Under the pieces are notes generated by a model that had not been told where the DNA came from, made no database searches, and saw nothing but the letters and a program-made list of their open reading frames with translations. Positions 11,072-18,326 of a stretch of DNA of 64,000 bases are shown here, piece after piece (position 1 is the stretch's first letter; the number at the start of each line of letters is the position of its first letter). This DNA is from Modestobacter versicolor (GTDB lineage Bacteria > Actinomycetota > Actinomycetes > Mycobacteriales > Geodermatophilaceae): the NCBI RefSeq assembly GCF_014195485.1, contig NZ_JACIBU010000001.1:1240001-1304000 (forward strand), in the 5' to 3' direction. Position numbers and translations under genes: made by a program.

Positions 11072-11620
11072 ATGAGCACCGACTACTCCAGGGCGCTGGG
11101 CGCCCGCCTGCGGGCCATCCGCAACCAGCAAGGGCTGTCGTTGCAGGGCGTGGAGGACAAGTCCCACGGCCGCTGGAAGGCCGTGGTGGTCGGCTCCTAC
11201 GAGCGCGGCGACCGGGCGGTCACCGTGCAGCGGCTCTCCGAGCTGGCCGTCTTCTACGGCGTCCCGGTCTCCGAGCTGCTGCCGGACCCCCGACCGAGCT
11301 CCGCGGTCACCAAGAGCACCAAGATCGTGCTGAACCTCGAGTCGCTGGGCTCGCTGCCCGCCGACGAGGCCGGCCCGCTCGCCCGCTACGCCTCGACCAT
11401 CCAGGCGCAGCGGCACGACTACAACGGCAAGGTGCTCTCGATCCGCGCCGAGGACCTCAAGTCGCTGGCGATCATCTACGACATGAGCCCCGACGAGCTG
11501 ACCACCCGGCTGATCGAGTGGGGCGTGCTCTCCCCCGGCGCCGACGGCAGCATCTACGCCACCGAGGACGACGACGACTCGGCGTCCTGGGGCGGCGACC
11601 GGCGGCGCACCCCGCGCTGA
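11072..11620 (+). CDS. bldD: BldD, c-di-GMP-dependent developmental regulator
   Basis: Master repressor of development genes in Streptomyces, dimerised by tetrameric c-di-GMP. The 182-residue protein has an N-terminal Xre/Cro-type helix-turn-helix (residues 5-70, including [18 protein letters not shown]) nearly identical to Streptomyces BldD. The c-di-GMP signature RXD-X8-RXXD is intact: Arg114-His-Asp116 and Arg125-Ala-Glu-Asp128, at the same numbering as S. coelicolor. The C terminus ends in an acidic run and basic tail. It is divergent from the pyr operon and followed by a strong terminator. In Streptomyces bldD lies next to nusB; here a 6.7-kb insert separates them. Confidence 0.96.
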
Positions 11621-11736: not shown

Positions 11737-14361
11737 TCAGCCCAGCAGGTCGGCCAGCTGACGACGACCGCTGATCCCGAGCTTGGCGTAGACGTGCGCC
11801 AGGTGCGTCTCCACCGTCCGCACCGACACCACCAGCCGGTCGGCGATCTCCTGGTTGCTGGCGCCCTGCGCCGCCTGGCGGGCCACCTCCTCCTCCCGGC
11901 TGGTCAGCGGGCCGACCGCGGTCTCGTGCAGCACCGTCTCCCCGCCGACCTCGCACCGGCGGGCCAGCGCGGCCGCTGAGGCCCGGGCCGCGGCGGCCGC
12001 TCCCCGGTCCCCGGCGCGGGCGTGCGCCGTGGCCGCGTCCGACGCCGCGTCGGCGGCGAGCAGCACCGCGCCCATCGCCTCGAACCGGGCGCTGACCGCG
12101 GTGAGCGCGAGGCCGTCGCCGTCCACCGCGGCCCGCACGTGGGTGGCGCAGGCCGCGACCAGCCCCGACTCGGTCGCGCAGCCCAGCGCGGTGATCCGGT
12201 CCACCACGTCGGCGCCCCGGCCGAAGCGCGCGGCGGTGTGCAGCAGCAGCGCCTCGACGGCCCACTGGTCGGTGGCCGCCGCCTCGGCCGCGGCGTCCAG
12301 GGCACGCGCCCCCGCCTCGGTCAGCCGCCCCGTGCTCGCCGCCAGCCACGCCTCGGCGGAGCGCACGGTCGGCCGGAACGCCGCCGGCACCCGGTGGGCC
12401 ACCCCGTGCCCGCTCTCGAGCATCCGGCGGGCACCCGCGGCGTCGCCGGTCACCACCTTGGCGATGGCCAGCTCCGCCACGCACAGCGGCAGCACCCCGG
12501 TGGGGTCGCGCTCGTCGAGCCCGGCGAGCGCCTCGACCAGCCAGCGCACCGCCTGGCGGGCGCGGCCGGCGGCCAGCGCGGCGCAGCCCCGGTAGAGCGC
12601 GATGACGGCGTCCCCCGCCCAGCGCGGGGCCTCCAGGTTGTGCCGCTGCAGCTCGGCGGCCCGCCGTTCCAGCTGGTCGATCCGGCCGCCGTAGCGCAGC
12701 GCGAGCACCTCGGCCTGCGCCAGCGCCAGCCGACCCAGGCCCACCTGCGGGCCGGCCGGCGCCTCCCCCAGCGCCGCCCACCCCTCGGTGACCGTGGCCA
12801 GCGCCGCGTCGGTGCGGCCCGACACCGCGAGCCCGGCCCCCGCGGCGGCGGCCGCCAGGGGCCGGGCACTGCCCCGCCGCGGGGCGTCCGCCATCGCCCG
12901 GGTCGCCAGGTCCACCGCGCGCCGCGGCCGCCCGGACAAGAACTCCAGCACCGCCTCGGTCGCGGTCAGCAGGGCGGTGCCGTCGGTGGTCCGCACCGCC
13001 GGGCGGGCGTCGGCGAGCACCGCGAACGCGTCCTCCGTGCGCCCCAGCCCGCAGGCGAGGCCGATCGACCGCAGCGCGGTGAGCTGGCTGAGGTCCTCCT
13101 GCGACGCGGTGGTGGTCAGCGCCTCGGCGGCCAGCCGGTCACCCCGGGCCGGGTCGCCCTGCCACTGGGTCGCCTCCACCAGCGCCACGCAGGCGGCCGC
13201 ACCGCCACCCGCGGCGATCCCGGCCTCGGCGAGGCGCTCGGCGAGCGGGTGGTCCAGCAGGGCGTTGGCCCGCCGGGCGGCCTCGGTGAGCCGCTGCCCG
13301 TCGGGCTCACCGGACTCCCGGTCCAGGATCAGCGCGGTGTGCCGGCGGAGCGCGGCGTTGGTGGTGGGCAGCGGCTGCCCCTCGCCCAGCTGCCGTCGGA
13401 CGTCCCGCAGGGCGGCCCAGGGCGCCCGGCGGCGCACCACCTCGGTGAGCAGCGGGTGGGCGGCCCGCACCTCCCCCGACCCGCCCGTCACCAGGTCGAC
13501 GAGGACGCCCCGGCGGGCCAGCTCGGTGACCGCGCCGGCGCTGCTGAGCTCGACCAGGCGGTCGGCCGGCAACGGCTCGCAGGTGGCCAGCACCTCCAGC
13601 ACCCGCCACTCCTCGGCGCTCAGCTCACCGAGGTGGTTGAGCACGATCTCGGACAACCGCTGGGACGGCGTCATCGCCCCCTCCCAGCGCCACACCCCGT
13701 CGTGGTCGCGGAGCTGACCGGACCGCCGGCCGTCCTCCAGGAGCTCGCGCAGGTACAGCGGGTTGCCGCCACCCAGCCGCCACAGCTGCTCGCCGGTCCG
13801 GCTGTCCACCGCCCCGCCCAGGAGGGCCGCGGCCAGCTCGTCGGCGTGCGCGCGCGACAGCGGGTCGAGCTGCACCCGGCTGACCAGCCCGTCCTTCCAC
13901 AGCGCCGCGACCGGGTCCGGCGTCGCCGGCGACGTGCGGACCGTGAGCACCAGCGACACCTGGCCCCCGGCGCCCAGCTGGTGCAGCAGCGTCAGGGAGA
14001 GCCGGTCGAGCAGGTGCACGTCGTCGACGACCAGCACCGGTCGCTGGCCCGACGGGTCGGTGACGACCGCCTGCGCCGCGCGCTGCAGCAGCACCAGCGC
14101 GTCGGTGGCGCCGTCGACCGGCGGCAGCAGGTGGGCCAGCGCGCCCAGCGGCACCGCGGCGGCCGCCGGGCTCGCTCCCGCCCACCGGGTCGGTCGGCCC
14201 AGCCCCTCGGCGATGGCCACGGCCTCGCGGGCCAAGCGGGTCCGCCCGACCCCCGACGGGCCGGCCACGACGACCCCGCGGGACTCGACGTCGGCCAGCG
14301 CGGCGGTGACCGTCGCGCACTGCGCCTCCCGCCCGACCAGCGGCGGTCCGAGCTCGGACAT
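11737..14361 (-). CDS. LuxR/LAL-type ATP-binding transcriptional regulator
   Basis: Large regulator (874 residues) with an N-terminal STAND/AAA-like ATPase domain, a central helical repeat region of about 500 residues, and a C-terminal LuxR helix-turn-helix (last 60 residues, [20 protein letters not shown]). The P-loop reads GPSGVGRT (34-41): the usual Walker A lysine is arginine. Walker B is [10 protein letters not shown] (109-118). The ATG at 14361 begins MSELG just before the conserved LVGRE motif. A GTG at 14409 would add 16 residues, but its GAGGAG is too close to serve well as a ribosome binding site. It lies 270 bases downstream of the M50 protease gene on the same strand and is the likely regulator of that insert; its signal is unknown. 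Confidence 0.85.
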
Positions 14362-14436
14362 CAGCGCGAGTGCCCGGTGCCGGGTACGCGGCGTGCGGCC
14401 GGCTGCCACCTCCTCGGCTCCGGTGTCCAGCGACGA

Positions 14437-14449
14437 TCACGCTCGGTGA
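14437..14449. promoter_or_regulatory. TCAC-N5-GTGA palindrome, BldD-like, before the LAL gene
   Basis: TCACGCTCGGTGA is an imperfect palindrome with four-base arms. On either strand it differs from the BldD consensus at one fixed position. It lies 76 bases upstream of the LAL ATG (28 from the alternative GTG), in the probable promoter region. Target of BldD or of the LAL protein itself; undecided. Confidence 0.4.
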
Positions 14450-14583
14450 GTCCCCTGATGGCCACGATGCCCCCCGCACTCCAGCCCGAGGTCACGGTAG
14501 GGCTCGGCAGCAGCGGCACACCAGCCGGATCGGACCGCAGGGGCCGCCGGGACGGCGGCACGGTCCCGGCACGCCGGGCGCAC

Positions 14584-14596
14584 TCACCGTCGGTGA
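14584..14596. promoter_or_regulatory. Second TCAC-N5-GTGA palindrome before the LAL gene
   Basis: TCACCGTCGGTGA is a perfect 13-base palindrome with the same arms and the same TCGGTGA right half as the site at 14437-14449, and starts 147 bases from it (about 14 helical turns). It fits the BldD consensus less well (two mismatches). It lies 35 bases past the end of the M50 protease gene. Confidence 0.35.
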
Positions 14597-14630
14597 CCGG
14601 GTCCGTGGGTGCGTGCACACCCGCGGAGGG

Positions 14631-17600
14631 TCAGCCCCCCAGCAACGGCACCGGGGCGGGCAGCGACCACTGCACCAGGAGGCCGCCGGGCTCCGTCGCC
14701 ACCGACGCCGGGGCCAGCGGTGCCCGTTGGGCGTCCAGCCACCGTCGGAGCAGGGCGGCGACGGCCGGCTCGCCGGCGGGCCGGCCGTCCAGCCCGGTGA
14801 CCAGCAGGGCGTGCGGCGGCGCGGCCGCCGGGTCCTCGCCCGGCACCGGCGGCAGGGCACCGACGGAGACCGTGCGCTCCCCCATGAGCCCGGCCAGCAC
14901 CAGGAGCAGCCGGGAGTCGACCTCGCCGGTGCGGACCGCCTCCCGCACGATCGCCGGGGCGTCCAGCCGGGGGTTGGCCGCGAGCAGCGCGCCCAGCGTC
15001 TGGCGGCGGGCCGCCTCCTGCGCTGCGGCCGCCGGGTCGGCGCTCGCCGCGGCGGGCGCCAGCACGGTGAGCGCCCCCTCGCCCGCACCGAACCTCGCCA
15101 CGACCCGAGGGCCCGGCGGCACCTCGCCCTGGACGACGGCCCAGCCGGGGCCGGCGGTCCCCTGCCCCGCCAGGGCGCTGAGCCGCTCGTCGGGCACCCC
15201 GTCCCGCACGAGGTCGGCCCACAGCCGGTCGGGCACCTCCACCGGCACCGTCGGCGCGGTGGGCTGCGCCAGCCAGCCGGCGAGCTCCGCGTGCGCGACC
15301 GGCGCGGCGGCGGCCGGGGCGAAGAGCCCGCCCACCACGACCACCAGCAGCAGCGGGACGGCGAGCGCGGACGACACCAGCGGGTGCGGGCGCTCGGCCA
15401 CCGGTCCCCCGGCCAGCGCCTGGACGAGGAGCACCCCCAGCGGGACGACGGTCACCACGACCAGCGGGAGCGCCGCGGCCGCGACCGCCCAGGGCAGGGC
15501 CCCGGCGAGGACAGCGGCACCGGCCGCGGCCGCCCACGGGCGGAGGTGCCCGACCGCGGCCCCGCCGACCACGACCAGCGCGGCCACCAGCAGCAGCACC
15601 GCCCGGTCGGCTGCCGCCATCGGGGGCGGCTCCCCGGGCATCGCCCCGAGCAGCGCGCCGCCGAGCCCGAGGGCCAGCAGCCCGGCCACGGCGGTCCACC
15701 GGGCCGACCGCGGCAGCCCGGCGCCGACCCTCCCCTGACCGACGGCGACCGCCGCGGCGGCGGCCACCGGGAGGACGACGACCGGGCAGGTGGCCACCCC
15801 GACGAGCAGCGCGGCCAGCCCGACCGCCGGCGCCGCCGGACGCCGCGCCACCTGGTGGCGCGGGCGGGCGTGCGGGCGCAGCAGCAGGAGCAGGCCGACC
15901 GCCGCCCACGCCGCACCCACCAGGGCGGCGCTGACCCCGGCCAGCAGCCCGACCACCGGGCCCATCACCAGCACGCCGGCGGTCGGCAACCCCACGGCCA
16001 GCGGCCGCACCCGCCGGCGGGCGGCCAGCACGAGCAGGCAGCCCAGGAGCACCGCGGTGGCCAGCAGCGCCACCTCGCGCCCGCCGGTCAGCACGTCGGC
16101 GTGCCGGTCGAACGCGCCGGTCAGGCCGGCGTACCCGGCGACCAGCTGGCGCACGAGCAGATCGGCCCCGGGCACGGCCACCGGGGCCGATCTGGGGTCG
16201 ACGGCGGCGAACGCGCCGCTGGTGACGCCGACCTCGCGGGCGGAGGCGGGCAGCGACGCCGCGACCTGCCACACCCGGGCAAGCACCAGCAGCAGCAGCG
16301 CGGCGCACGCCGAGCGCGCGAGACCGCGGGTGACCCGGCTCCAGGTGCCCGCCGGCACGCGGCCGCGCCCCCAGCGCGCGACGGCCGCGCGGCGCAGCAT
16401 CCCGCCGATCATCACGGTGATCAGCACCGTGCCGATCCAGGGCAGCAGCAGCAGCGAGAACTGGCCGACCCCCAGCACGACGGTCAGCACGTCGCCGTCC
16501 CGGACGGCGCGCTGCAGCCCGCGCCCGTAGTCGACGACCGCGGCCGCTGCGGCGGGCAGGGCGCGCGGCAGCAGGAGCAGGAATACCACGAGGAGGCCGC
16601 CGAGCGTCGGGACGACCGCGAGCACCCAGCCCACGATCACCCGGCGCGACCAGGGCTTGAGCCGGCTCACTGCCGGGTCGGCCGGCCGGCCGGGCAGCAG
16701 GCTGCGCAGCACCGGGCGGAGGTAGCCGAACAGCTCGGGGACGCCCACCAGGTCGGCGAGCACGTAGTACCCGTCGAGCCGGATCGACGGCAGGAACTGC
16801 CACAGGGCGCCGCTCAGCAGGCCGAGCACGAGGAGCAGCAGCCACGGCTGGCCGGTGGCCAGGTACACCGCGGTGAGGCCTGCGATGAACAGCGCGTTGA
16901 AGTACACCCCACCCAGGTCGGTGCGCAGCCGGCCGACACGGCCCAGCCGGTAGGAGTCGGTGACCGTGCTGTAGAGGGCGGGCCAGACGATGTAGAGCCC
17001 GATCCCCATGTCGCCCGGCCGGGCCCCGCCGTAGCGGCAGGCGGCCACGTGACCGCACTCGTGGAACACGGCCGACGCGAGGGACAGCCCGAGCATCGCC
17101 AGGGTCAGGGTCGGGTGCTGGACGACCTGCGTGACGCCGCCGACCGCGGCGTCGACCAGCCCGCCCCGCAGGACGGCGGCGACGAGCAGCGCCACGAACG
17201 CGCTCAGGCCGGCGGCCCACACCGGGCGGCGGAAGAACAGCTGGAAGAGCCCGGCGACCCGCCAGACCACGCCCGCGGGCACGATCCCGATCCGGAACCG
17301 CAGCGCGAGGAGGGGGTCGGGGCGGACGAGCACCACCTCGGGGCCGGCGGTGGCGCCGTCCGCGGCGACGATGCCGACCGGGCGGAGCCGCTCCTCGACC
17401 AGGAAGCCGACGTCGTCGGCGGTGAGCTCCTGCCCGAGCTGGCGGGAGAGGTCGGCGGCCAGCGCGGCGTCGTCGCGGCCGTTGAGCGAGGCGGCCACCC
17501 GGTACAGCAGGTGCGGCAGCTGCATCACCTGCCCGTCGACCCGGCGGATCAGGTACGTGGGGACGTCGAGGCCGGAACCCTGGTACTCGCCGAGCAGTTC

Positions 17601-17672
17601 GGTCCCCTCGGCGAGCCGGTGCACCGCGGGCGCGCCCGGGGCCGGTGGCGGGGTGAGCGTGCTGTCGAGCAC
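14631..17672 (-). CDS. Large membrane protein with M50 zinc-peptidase motif (putative peptide zinc metalloprotease)
   Basis: Predicted 1013-residue polytopic protein. Residues 15-105 form a soluble domain resembling the PqqD-like/winged-helix domain seen in actinobacterial putative peptide zinc metalloproteases (YLIRR-DGQV-QL then LLY-VA). The M50 zinc motif HECGH is at 204-208 within a hydrophobic helix, and the partner motif LDGYYVLAD at 299-307 supplies the third ligand, so the site looks intact. Many further hydrophobic segments follow, then a soluble C-terminal domain of about 210 residues. Typical M50 proteins are about 400 residues. An excellent GGAAGGAGG (17680-17688), seven bases before GTG 17672, fixes the start and overrides a GTG at 17744. 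The gene follows the glycine-rich peptide gene by 110 bases, which suggests that peptide as substrate or cargo (inference). Confidence 0.85.
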   Translation of the reverse strand: MLDSTLTPPPAPGAPAVHRLAEGTELLGEYQGSGLDVPTYLIRRVDGQVMQLPHLLYRVAASLNGRDDAALAADLSRQLGQELTADDVGFLVEERLRPVGIVAADGATAGPEVVLVRPDPLLALRFRIGIVPAGVVWRVAGLFQLFFRRPVWAAGLSAFVALLVAAVLRGGLVDAAVGGVTQVVQHPTLTLAMLGLSLASAVFHECGHVAACRYGGARPGDMGIGLYIVWPALYSTVTDSYRLGRVGRLRTDLGGVYFNALFIAGLTAVYLATGQPWLLLLVLGLLSGALWQFLPSIRLDGYYVLADLVGVPELFGYLRPVLRSLLPGRPADPAVSRLKPWSRRVIVGWVLAVVPTLGGLLVVFLLLLPRALPAAAAAVVDYGRGLQRAVRDGDVLTVVLGVGQFSLLLLPWIGTVLITVMIGGMLRRAAVARWGRGRVPAGTWSRVTRGLARSACAALLLLVLARVWQVAASLPASAREVGVTSGAFAAVDPRSAPVAVPGADLLVRQLVAGYAGLTGAFDRHADVLTGGREVALLATAVLLGCLLVLAARRRVRPLAVGLPTAGVLVMGPVVGLLAGVSAALVGAAWAAVGLLLLLRPHARPRHQVARRPAAPAVGLAALLVGVATCPVVVLPVAAAAAVAVGQGRVGAGLPRSARWTAVAGLLALGLGGALLGAMPGEPPPMAAADRAVLLLVAALVVVGGAAVGHLRPWAAAAGAAVLAGALPWAVAAAALPLVVVTVVPLGVLLVQALAGGPVAERPHPLVSSALAVPLLLVVVVGGLFAPAAAAPVAHAELAGWLAQPTAPTVPVEVPDRLWADLVRDGVPDERLSALAGQGTAGPGWAVVQGEVPPGPRVVARFGAGEGALTVLAPAAASADPAAAAQEAARRQTLGALLAANPRLDAPAIVREAVRTGEVDSRLLLVLAGLMGERTVSVGALPPVPGEDPAAAPPHALLVTGLDGRPAGEPAVAALLRRWLDAQRAPLAPASVATEPGGLLVQWSLPAPVPLLGG

Positions 17673-17679
17673 GGTGCGT

Positions 17680-17688
17680 CCTCCTTCC
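17680..17688 (-). promoter_or_regulatory. Ribosome binding site that fixes the M50 protein start
   Basis: GGAAGGAGG seven bases upstream of GTG 17672. It is among the strongest Shine-Dalgarno sequences in the window, where most genes rely on stop-start overlap instead. It implies independent and efficient translation of the protease gene. Confidence 0.8.
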
Positions 17689-17782
17689 GGGGCGGCCGGG
17701 ACGGCACGGAGGGACGGCCTCGCGGCCGCCCCTCCGGTCACCACGGCGGCGCGGGGACGGGGACCCCGCGCCGCGGCAGCTG

Positions 17783-18028
17783 TCAGCCCGCGGAACCGCC
17801 GGCGCCGCCGGCCCCACCGGCGCCGCCGTTGGCGCTGCCTCCGGTCGCGTCACCGAAGACGCTCACGGCCGGCGAGATGGCGATGCCGCCGTTGCCCCCG
17901 GCGCCCCCGGCGCCACCGGCGCCGCCGACCAGGACCTGGTAGAAGAAGCCGCCGCGCGACTTCCGTCCTCCGTAGCTGCTCATGACGGTGCGGGCGGGGA
18001 GCAGCTCGACCTTCTGGTCCTCGAACAT
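17783..18028 (-). CDS. Glycine-rich small peptide with leader-like N terminus (candidate modified-peptide precursor)
   Basis: Predicted 81-residue peptide. Residues 1-18 are leader-like and charged, with the ordered motif VELLPARTVM; 19-27 are Gly/Arg/Ser-rich; 28-34 form a short hydrophobic FFYQVLV stretch; 35-81 are almost all Gly, Ala and Asn with GGAGGAGG runs split by AISPAVSVFGD. It has no Cys, His or Trp and no Sec signal peptide. AGGAG (18034-18038), five bases before the ATG at 18028, fixes the start; an in-frame ATG at 18070 lacks such a site. It lies upstream of the M50-motif membrane protein on the same strand. The leader/core shape resembles RiPP precursors, but no recognised modifying enzyme (LanM, YcaO, radical SAM, grasp ligase) is nearby, so a structural or surface Gly-rich peptide is the alternative. 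Confidence 0.75.
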   Translation of the reverse strand: MFEDQKVELLPARTVMSSYGGRKSRGGFFYQVLVGGAGGAGGAGGNGGIAISPAVSVFGDATGGSANGGAGGAGGAGGSAG

Positions 18029-18105
18029 GACATCTCCTGTCTGCTGGACTTCCCTGGAGCCGAGCCGCATGCCACGGATCTCGGCTCCCCCATGCTCGGC
18101 GCGGC

Positions 18106-18134: not shown

Positions 18135-18242
18135 GTATCTCCCGCCCGGCGACGCCGGTCCCGTGCTCGACCGGTACGTAGCCGGTGGGGCGGCACCACG
18201 GAGGCCGGCGGGCCGACCACGTACGTCGTGCGGCCGCAGGGA

Positions 18243-18282
18243 CGCCGAGAGCCCACCCCGTGGTCGGGGTGGGCTCTCGGCG
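18243..18282 (-). terminator. Strong hairpin terminator after nusB
   Basis: Perfect 18-bp stem with a 4-base TGGT loop (18243-18260 and 18265-18282), about 45 bases after the nusB stop on the minus strand. It ends the aro/efp/nusB transcript and separates it from the peptide/protease insert. The stem core GCCCACCCCG is shared with the bldD terminator. Confidence 0.85.
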
Positions 18283-18326
18283 TGCGGCGTTCGGCGCCCC
18301 GGCTGCAGCAGCAGCGGGGCCCGTGC

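Follow-up and report, generated by a model that had tools for sequence, protein, structure and literature searches.

MpaP is an intramembrane peptidase that depends on a RiPP recognition element (RRE) to remove the daptide leader; in the daptide loci described with it the precursor has an ELExMEAP leader and an invariant Thr at its C-terminus, and an oxidative decarboxylase, an aminotransferase and a methyltransferase are encoded alongside (PMC10036551). EpeP is reported to be sufficient for EpeX production and is thought to cleave and export EpeX; the same review also reports that epeP deletion did not abolish EpeX and that the M50 proteases TglG and TmoG trim C-termini instead (PMC10885120). 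According to a preprint on the TMcin system, the site-2-clan protease TmcP, a DUF3267 protein (PF11667), removes a leader at the membrane, and TmcA contains a transmembrane helix and a disulfide (PMC13252029). We compared these systems with a locus in the window, the whole 64,000-nt stretch of Modestobacter versicolor DNA analysed here. An earlier note had described three co-oriented genes there, and all three were confirmed as minus-strand open reading frames of 81, 1013 and 874 residues. The strong ribosome binding sites that it had reported for the peptide and protease genes are also present. The features of the locus are as follows.

17783..18028, minus strand: precursor peptide gene, 81 aa; leader residues 1-16 (MFEDQKVELLPARTVM), Gly-rich core 17-81
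17981..18028, minus strand: leader-coding part, residues 1-16, with the motif ELLPARTVM
18034..18038, minus strand: Shine-Dalgarno AGGAG of the peptide gene, read directly
14631..17672, minus strand: gene for the putative RRE-site-2-protease (M50-like) membrane protein, 1013 aa, GTG start
17680..17686, minus strand: Shine-Dalgarno AAGGAGG of the M50 gene, read directly
17385..17621, minus strand: predicted PqqD-like RRE domain, residues 18-96 (model mean pLDDT 89.9)
17049..17063, minus strand: HECGH zinc motif, residues 204-208
16770..16778, minus strand: LDG motif with the distal Asp, residues 299-301
14634..16337, minus strand: clade-specific C-terminal half, residues 446-1013
11737..14361, minus strand: LAL-type regulator gene, 874 aa; AAA_16 at residues 7-135, LuxR (GerE) HTH at 818-872
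14437..14449, no strand assigned: palindrome TCACGCTCGGTGA, a possible operator lying upstream of the LAL gene
14584..14596, no strand assigned: palindrome TCACCGTCGGTGA, a possible operator lying upstream of the LAL gene

The trio was said to be inserted between bldD and nusB, and the comparison of sites bears this out. BldD scores 288 bits against NF050110 (cut-off 250), and the minus-strand genes at 18731-18327 and 19296-18736 are those that we take to be nusB and efp. The trio forms an island at this site: among the best-scoring 30 of 100 genomes with a BldD match, own included, bldD and nusB are 63-786 nt apart in 27 of the 29 other loci. The two loci without the close spacing are L147 and L149; the latter belongs to G011, the only one among 22 same-genus genomes in which the N-terminal half of the M50 protein found a match. 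Two genomes of the family, G052 and G046, are examples outside the 29 compared that have the unit at the bldD-nusB site. No peptide relic was seen by eye in eight empty gaps and the L147 flank. Rfam gave 0 matches in 12 kb, sigma-70 promoter and terminator scans found none, and the sole PADLOC match was the HTH of the LAL protein. Nothing was found in support of the developmental role suggested earlier, and nusB and efp homologues adjoin the unit in 8 of the 78 named loci.

The membrane protein can be described as a predicted PqqD-like RRE fused to a site-2 protease. In the model of residues 18-96, strands 25-29, 40-43 and 49-52 are followed by helices 54-61, 68-79 and 85-96, with an extra short strand at 64-66; three strands and then three helices are the order expected of a PqqD-like RRE fold. 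Foldseek aligned this model with PqqD 5sxy (probability 0.94, TMt 0.64, E 0.64), while no Foldseek E-value reached 0.001 and the best matches by E-value were ion channels and transporters at probability 0.15 or less; a GdmN chain had a probability of 0.80. A profile comparison of the N-terminus ranked PqqD 3g2b second (E 0.58), behind an unrelated chain at 0.11, and Pfam PqqD matches 1 of 73 members. In the protease half, HECGH at 204-208 and LDGYYVLAD from residue 299 are intact, as previously read. Across an alignment of 73 sequences, H204, E205, G207, H208, R298, D300 and G301 are invariant; it comprises the window and 72 of the 78 named loci, with L100, L116, L128, L132, L133 and L137 left out where the script found no usable start or frame. 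The structure model of the protein contains long helices, and HExxH with a distal Asp (H204, E205, H208, D300) in a multi-helix membrane protein is the pattern of a site-2 protease. The match of this half to SpoIVFB 8vjl is weak (Foldseek probability 0.30, TMt 0.31). The window protein has no Pfam match, Peptidase_M50 included, and that family is marginal among the 73 members (19 at E up to 0.1, best 0.0042). The C-terminal half (446-1013), which also lacks a Pfam match, is related to a separate 611-aa membrane protein of the same genome.

Against the described families, the window protein scores 90.1 bits with daptide_HExxH (NF041824, MpaP; cut-off 300) and 40 bits with YydH/EpeP (NF058609; cut-off 225), and it lies below every curated family cut-off. 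It appears to be kin of the daptide and epipeptide proteases, remote in both cases. Unlike daptides with their invariant Thr, the window peptide ends in Gly; the decarboxylase, aminotransferase and methyltransferase set is absent between bldD and nusB and was not recognised by eye among recurrent neighbours in the 78 loci. YydH/EpeP is likewise a membrane M50 protease with a proposed role in cutting and exporting a small peptide, whereas the yyd locus as described encodes a radical SAM epimerase and an ABC transporter, both lacking from the window's island. The window protein differs from TmcP in having no Pfam domain such as DUF3267.

No signal peptide was seen by eye in the peptides. The 81-residue peptide matches no Pfam or NCBIfam family, and no such family was found among six peptides tested (the window's and five from relatives). 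Its leader is conserved in relatives. With position 0 set at the L of LP, 138 non-redundant peptides covering 75 of the 78 loci have E at -2 (91%), Q at -5 (68%) and E at -9 (80%), while the letters at 0, +1, +3, +4 and +6 were fixed by the search pattern and are uninformative on their own. In the favoured reading the peptide is a precursor whose short conserved leader has the motif E-x-L-P-x-[RK]-x-x-[ML] and whose core has diversified. Leader and core lie beside a processing enzyme, as expected of a RiPP precursor, the split between the two being drawn from conservation.

The earlier note had made its proposal depend on a peptide frame that is conserved next to M50 homologues and under purifying selection, and both expectations held in relatives. 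Of the 79 best named loci, 76 have a small ORF on the same strand ahead of the M50 homologue whose product begins with an LPx[RK]xx[ML] leader; the three misses are a degenerate frame, RVEVLTARAIM (L092), an LPARTLV variant (L108) and peptides on the opposite strand (L123). L081 is the same stretch as L080 and is excluded from counts out of 78. The position of the matches is narrow: on the M50 strand there were 113 in 77 kb within 1 kb upstream and 5 in 496 kb inside or downstream of the M50 region. Control scans of the remaining 56.5 kb of the window and of 72.5 kb from L015-L031 gave 0 matches each, with length filters of 50-140 aa and again of 35-320 aa. The Shine-Dalgarno-like word and coding-like GC3 of the relatives are not separate evidence because both were scan filters. 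Among 29 loci from a later phylum search, a looser test found a leader peptide anywhere in 20, and a stricter recount found one anywhere in 18 and upstream on the M50 strand in 13. The strict leader motif is absent in 9 of the 29, the recount did not locate the M50 motif in 6, and the set is partly dependent (a peptide of the first set recurs in L169, L170 and L180, and G088 was in an earlier sample). Loci hold one to five peptides, with the leader conserved and the core varied, and the leader recurs at one position across phyla. Over the full peptide, dN/dS was below 1 in 18 of 18 pairs from other loci, which were hand-picked and partly non-independent, with none dropped; one leader gave 1.11, resting on very few changes. 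The window's own peptide lacked a close orthologue for such a comparison.

One scan of a species-level genome collection returned 441 stretches with relatives of the protease, and an even draw of Actinomycetota gave 30 positive genomes in 396, own included. Strains with the unit include Geodermatophilus obscurus DSM 43162 (L113) and members of Streptomyces. Phage records gave no match. Plasmid matches were limited to two Streptomyces, and 18 of 20 records cover just 27-37% of the query; the two plasmid homologues have RefSeq gene calls in which peptide and protease are both labelled 'hypothetical protein'. A literature search found no paper on the peptide-protease pair. The pair is wider than the earlier note had seen, the window containing a local copy of one found in many soil bacteria. 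It is widespread, and the window protease and the six peptides fall outside curated families.

The cores vary by clade. Gly, Ala and Asn together account for roughly half of their residues and Arg plus Lys for about 3%; Cys is present in 9% of cores, and the cores are low-complexity and roughly 30-110 aa long. In the window's clade, Gly-rich arms flank a short central segment. In one branch (LPDRE) the core repeats a 23-residue unit found in an exported partner or in the protease's own C-terminus. The pattern P.N.A...N..[SC]..[SC]...A.A.Q, built from the same proteins, gave 63 distinct matches in 1.9 million residues of six-frame ORFs from loci enriched for the system: 40 in peptides (36 flagged by script and 4 read later, of which three are extended frames and one has VP for LP), 11 in separate partners and 12 in M50-fused domains. 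In another count, 3 of 24 motif matches were judged spurious (L072, L082, L102). Core and partner align in the same register by hhalign (P 0.00095), with a probability of only 22%. In the window's class no partner-shared repeat was seen, and a partner gene is missing from the window's island. At lag 2, hydrophobic alternation reaches z 4.9 in the Geodermatophilaceae class, 3.1 and 2.6 in two others and -1.8 in Streptomyces. It is absent from the window's own core (z 0.4), so we do not claim beta structure for that peptide. Chaplins and curli-type repeat proteins are short exported repeats with Asn/Gly spacing that occur in several copies and self-assemble. Their likeness to the pair is an analogy only; here a protease-linked leader is found instead, and the chaplin model gave no Pfam match for the window peptide or the five relatives. 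Membership in the daptides, epipeptides and chaplins was rejected on the tested features.

The regulator has an AAA_16 domain (38.1 bits, cut-off 32.6; 2.9e-9) and a GerE domain (60.3 bits, cut-off 23.5; 1.4e-16), an N-terminal AAA and C-terminal LuxR HTH being the LAL architecture. AbsR2 (NF050132) has the same AAA_16 and C-terminal LuxR HTH, but the window protein scores 174 bits where the cut-off is 850 and is not AbsR2. No Shine-Dalgarno was seen by eye before its ATG. Control of the unit by this protein, as proposed earlier, is plausible and probable within the window's clade, but it would be clade-specific. Of 78 loci, 24 (by clustering) or 25 (by tblastn) have a LAL gene no more than about 5 kb away from the M50 gene. 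The two palindromes upstream of the gene are near-identical, and most relatives do not have them. The pattern TNACN5GTNA matches upstream of LAL genes in 9 of 25 loci (16 matches in 12 kb vs 0.117 per kb in whole loci). Operator conservation was dropped and is not used here because 7 of these 16 matches lie in coding region and 4 are one sequence from related loci.

We favour, with some confidence, a reading in which the leader is bound by the RRE and cut by the protease and the core acts extracellularly, most likely as a surface building block. The predicted RRE at the N-terminus would bind the leader and present the junction to the fused site-2 metalloprotease, which would use its HExxH and distal Asp to make a cut at the membrane, close to the M/L of the motif. 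The cut may allow export of the core, a route also proposed for EpeP/YydH, and the pair probably releases the peptide from the cell. Of the earlier suggestion that the membrane protein matures, exports or senses the peptide, maturation and export gain support from the 76/79 association and the predicted RRE, and 'senses' does not. Once outside, the core would most likely be built into a surface layer or fibre, with an exported partner protein as the base for assembly. A bolder proposal, which we hold tentatively and think doubtful as it stands, is a new class of exported surface polymer that needs no classical signal peptide: the RRE-fused site-2 protease would release a short repeat peptide in many copies, and these would co-assemble with a secreted or protease-fused partner bearing the same repeat. 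The protease would in this way be both processing enzyme and assembly anchor, and clades would have swapped core and partner while keeping leader and protease. If the favoured reading holds, RRE-guided intramembrane proteolysis releases peptides beyond modified antibiotics; many loci offer an evident enzyme, a substrate motif and a predicted cut region, so the model is directly testable.

The protease could instead mature and export a RiPP-like bacteriocin against neighbours, with tailoring enzymes elsewhere or none. The closest protease families do mature RiPPs (PMC10036551, PMC10885120), and several divergent cores per locus together with a patchy spread (30/396 Actinomycetota genomes) fit bacteriocins. 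We nevertheless think this unlikely: no tailoring, transporter or immunity gene was recognised among neighbour clusters present in at least 4 of the 78 loci (by eye, with a few Pfam runs), the cores have the Gly/Ala/Asn-rich, Arg/Lys- and Cys-poor composition given above, and a repeat common to core and exported partner fits a structural role better. A signalling role, in which the cell would sense the released core or a leader fragment and the LAL regulator would receive the feedback, would suit the LAL gene near the M50 gene in 24-25 of 78 loci and the paired palindromes. It seems improbable, given that the examined flanks of 53 of the 78 loci held no LAL gene, no recurrent receptor gene was recognised, the cores are long and low-complexity and most relatives lack the palindromes.

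Site-2 proteases often act on regulators, and on that precedent the peptide might be a regulator or cofactor of a protease whose substrate is another membrane protein, e.g., an anti-sigma factor. Multiple copies with diversified cores, the RRE-like domain and the daptide and epipeptide precedents point to a substrate, and we give the cofactor role very little weight. That the peptide ORF arose by chance from high GC content is scarcely credible: Gly codons are GC-rich and long spurious frames abound in the window, but the leader holds one position across phyla, 129 kb of control DNA gave 0 matches, relatives show dN/dS below 1 and RefSeq calls genes for the two plasmid homologues.

Two minor observations concern neighbouring genes. 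The 78-locus neighbour clustering contains one cluster of ABC-type ATPases, present in 9 loci at varying distances, and at L048 a single methyltransferase-like ORF follows the M50 gene.

The genome, 4.59 Mb in size, is actinobacterial, and in it the peptide, M50 and LAL genes lie between bldD and nusB. The earlier note had described three co-oriented genes inserted there, and the coordinates bear out both the shared orientation and the placement:

18731-18327, a gene taken to be nusB
18028-17783, minus strand, peptide gene
17672-14631, minus strand, M50 protein gene
14361-11737, minus strand, LAL gene
11072-11620, plus strand, bldD (288 bits to NF050110)

A BldD match was obtained in 100 genomes, and we compared the bldD loci of the 30 that matched best; setting the window's own genome aside leaves 29. 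Because nusB is found 63-786 nt from bldD in 27 of these 29, and one of the two exceptions (L149) comes from a genome of the same genus that has the M50 gene (G011), the unit is, judging from gene spacing, an insertion at the bldD-nusB site in this genus. The other exception, L147, also belongs to the genus (genome G006) and has no nusB within 1.5 kb of bldD. A search of G006 with the M50 N-terminal half gave no match despite this separation, and L147 perhaps holds another insertion at the same site. Of the 78 named loci, 8 have nusB and efp homologues close to the unit. In the window, the stretch that separates nusB from the peptide gene contains an inverted repeat (18242-18283) whose 19-bp arms pair perfectly across a 4-nt loop; it has no T tract and may be a terminator of nusB.

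When the window peptide was used as query, it matched 7 of the 112 genomes of the family, the window's own among them. In six of them the match is a leader peptide adjoining an M50 homologue; in the seventh (G030) it is confined to the Gly-rich residues 18-74. With the M50 alignment as query, a scan of the genome collection yielded 441 stretches encoding a relative, and the best 80 gave 79 loci (78 after merging a duplicate), whose titles name Geodermatophilaceae, Pseudonocardiales, Saccharopolyspora, Streptomyces, Acidimicrobiia, Thermoleophilia, Rubrobacteraceae and Chloroflexi. We then searched for ORFs that combine a start codon and coding-like GC3 with a Shine-Dalgarno-like word and, near the start, the motif LPx[RK][TEAQS]x[ML]. 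Of the 79 loci, 76 have such an ORF upstream on the M50 strand, and the last of these ORFs in a locus stops 75-618 nt ahead of the M50 match. The same scan (50-140 aa filter) found none in 56.5 kb of the window or in 72.5 kb of L015-L031, and still none in this control DNA with a 35-320 aa filter or without the GC3 filter; a downstream control gave three matches in 242.5 kb, themselves LLPARTT peptides. What the earlier note described is real and goes beyond what it claimed: the precursor-and-protease pair is widespread and largely unnamed.

Peptide matches by position relative to the M50 gene
Zone; M50 strand; opposite strand
Less than 1 kb upstream; 113 in 77.3 kb; 2
1-3.5 kb upstream; 36 in 169.1 kb; 13
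Farther upstream than 3.5 kb; 1 in 143.7 kb; 1
Over the M50 region; 2 in 257.2 kb; 0
Downstream; 3 in 239.2 kb; 0

A later set of 29 loci from a phylum search (1.5 kb flanks; three share a peptide with the first set) has a match somewhere, on either strand, in 20. A recount with a shorter Shine-Dalgarno word list leaves 18 loci with a match at any position and 13 with one upstream on the M50 strand; the M50 motif was not located in six. In total, 149 peptides (138 non-redundant) were collected from 75 of 78 loci, 1-5 per locus. Counting from the L of LP as position 0, residues outside the pattern-fixed positions also recur in the leader: E both at -9 (80%) and at -2 (91%), Q at -5 (68%), S at +7 (60%). 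Upstream of some distant M50 relatives (L054, L056, L191, L194, L195 and L196) the leader-bearing ORFs are much longer, at 208-285 aa, and seem to hold several core-like repeats.

The leaders fall into classes: LLPART in Geodermatophilaceae and Pseudonocardiales, FLPART in Saccharopolyspora, LPGREALG in Streptomyces, and LPDRE and LPERA in other Actinomycetota and Chloroflexi. Mean protease identity is 0.54-0.84 inside classes versus 0.41-0.54 between them (9 of 73 sequences are outside the classes), and by mean pairwise identity leader class broadly tracks protease similarity. The earlier note had staked the peptide on purifying selection, and among relatives this holds: in 18 hand-chosen pairs from named loci other than the window, whose own peptide has no close orthologue, Nei-Gojobori dN/dS over the full peptide was below 1 in all 18 (0.00-0.65), single values being rough because the peptides are short. 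The leader has no amino-acid change in five of six Geodermatophilaceae pairs; one Pseudonocardiales leader gave 1.11, with very few changes.

The full-length M50 protein had no match in a Pfam scan. It scored 90 bits against the NCBIfam daptide intramembrane metalloprotease (cut-off 300) and 40 bits against YydH/LiaK (cut-off 225), so that by these scores it is kin to, not a member of, these protease families. H204, E205, H208 and D300 are invariant in an alignment of 73 sequences (72 named loci and the window), of which 19 match Peptidase_M50 and one PqqD at E up to 0.1. Residues 1-430 were modeled with AlphaFold2 (mean pLDDT 89.9), and Foldseek matched the model to PqqD 5sxy (probability 0.94, TMt 0.64), to maturase 5wgg, which carries an RRE (0.87), and to a GdmN chain (0.80). 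None of the E-values is below 0.001, and a ranking by E-value is headed by unrelated membrane proteins whose probability is low; the protease half resembles SpoIVFB weakly (probability 0.30, TMt 0.31). A profile search gave an unrelated chain (E 0.11), then PqqD 3g2b (E 0.58). The modeled N-terminus has strands at 25-29, 40-43 and 49-52 and helices at 54-61, 68-79 and 85-96, the order required of an RRE in PMC12710340.

The C-terminal half, also without a Pfam match, is 38% identical to a separate protein of the same genome:

L002:1396-3231 (own genome C2:301629-303326), 611-aa membrane protein without Pfam match

It may be a degenerate GT-C-type protein.

Around the unit, the neighbour clusters common to at least four of 78 loci include none recognised as a tailoring enzyme, a transporter or an immunity gene; because this assessment used sequence and a few Pfam runs, a rare enzyme could be missed. 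One cluster, of ABC-type ATPases, is found in nine of 78 loci at scattered distances. One Blastococcus locus has a methyltransferase-like ORF (by eye) directly 3' of the M50 gene (L048:12509-13048); no other tailoring-like neighbour was noticed within the window's family. Exported-looking proteins recur clade by clade. Ten of the 13 named Geodermatophilaceae loci (among the 13, three are from one strain and two are short contigs) have a lipoprotein-like protein; its one homologue in the window genome, a small lipoprotein at C1:3703188-3703427, is unlinked to the unit, and its surroundings are covered by locus L202. Homologues of an L074 protein (DUF2807, 99 bits) lie downstream in 13 loci, one match being weak.

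In LPDRE, LPERA and LPGRE loci the partner is a C..C.T.A.A.Q-repeat protein (21 of 78 by motif, plus L124), with a signal-like N-terminus, by eye, in the few read; in L051 and L053-L056 the M50 protein itself has this domain fused at its C-terminus. The repeats of core and partner can be aligned in a single register. The pattern P.N.A...N..[SC]..[SC]...A.A.Q has 63 distinct matches in 1.9 million residues of six-frame ORFs from the fetched loci: 36 flagged as leader peptides, 11 separate partners, 12 M50-fused domains, and four recognised as peptides when read, of which three are in extended frames and one, in L170, has VP instead of LP. hhalign returned the same alignment (P 0.00095, probability 22%). 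This sharing is suggestive, not proof, because these same proteins served to build the pattern and the loci searched are enriched for the system. The repeat is not present in the window's core, which aligns in its own class, with Gly-rich arms flanking a short central segment.

The pair is best read as RRE-guided leader removal with release of the core. For the cores, a structural role at the surface is our preferred guess, and its main rival is that they are antimicrobial. The proposed leader removal resembles the maturation step of daptides and epipeptides; membership of either group was ruled out by the features tested. In the daptide paper (PMC10036551), MpaP is described as an intramembrane peptidase that depends on an RRE and occurs alongside short ORFs; the pipeline of that study yielded other RRE families too and may already have met this group. 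According to a review (PMC10885120), EpeP is sufficient for EpeX production and is thought to cleave and export EpeX, EpeX persisted after deletion of epeP, and pearlin C-termini are trimmed by other M50 proteases. YydH is a presumed processing and export protease (PMC7026026), and a site-2-clan protease removes the TMcin leader (PMC13252029). The word M50 is absent from the main texts of PMC12710340 and PMC7470986, and the passages covered from PMC12338566 hold nothing further on leader removal. Within the open-access literature, subscription papers being outside the search, no paper was recognised as describing the leader or the pair.

The domains recognised in the LAL protein are AAA_16 and LuxR. 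A homologue lies within the fetched flanks of 24 of 78 loci by clustering and 25 by tblastn, in Geodermatophilaceae and Pseudonocardiales. Upstream of the LAL gene are two near-identical 13-bp palindromes:

14437-14449 and 14584-14596, palindromes TCACGCTCGGTGA and TCACCGTCGGTGA

They resemble BldD boxes, with one or two mismatches. TNACN5GTNA occurs upstream of or at the start of the gene in 9 of 25 LAL loci, many from related sequences. The window has five matches versus 3.65 expected, two of them in the 272-bp gap upstream of the LAL gene.
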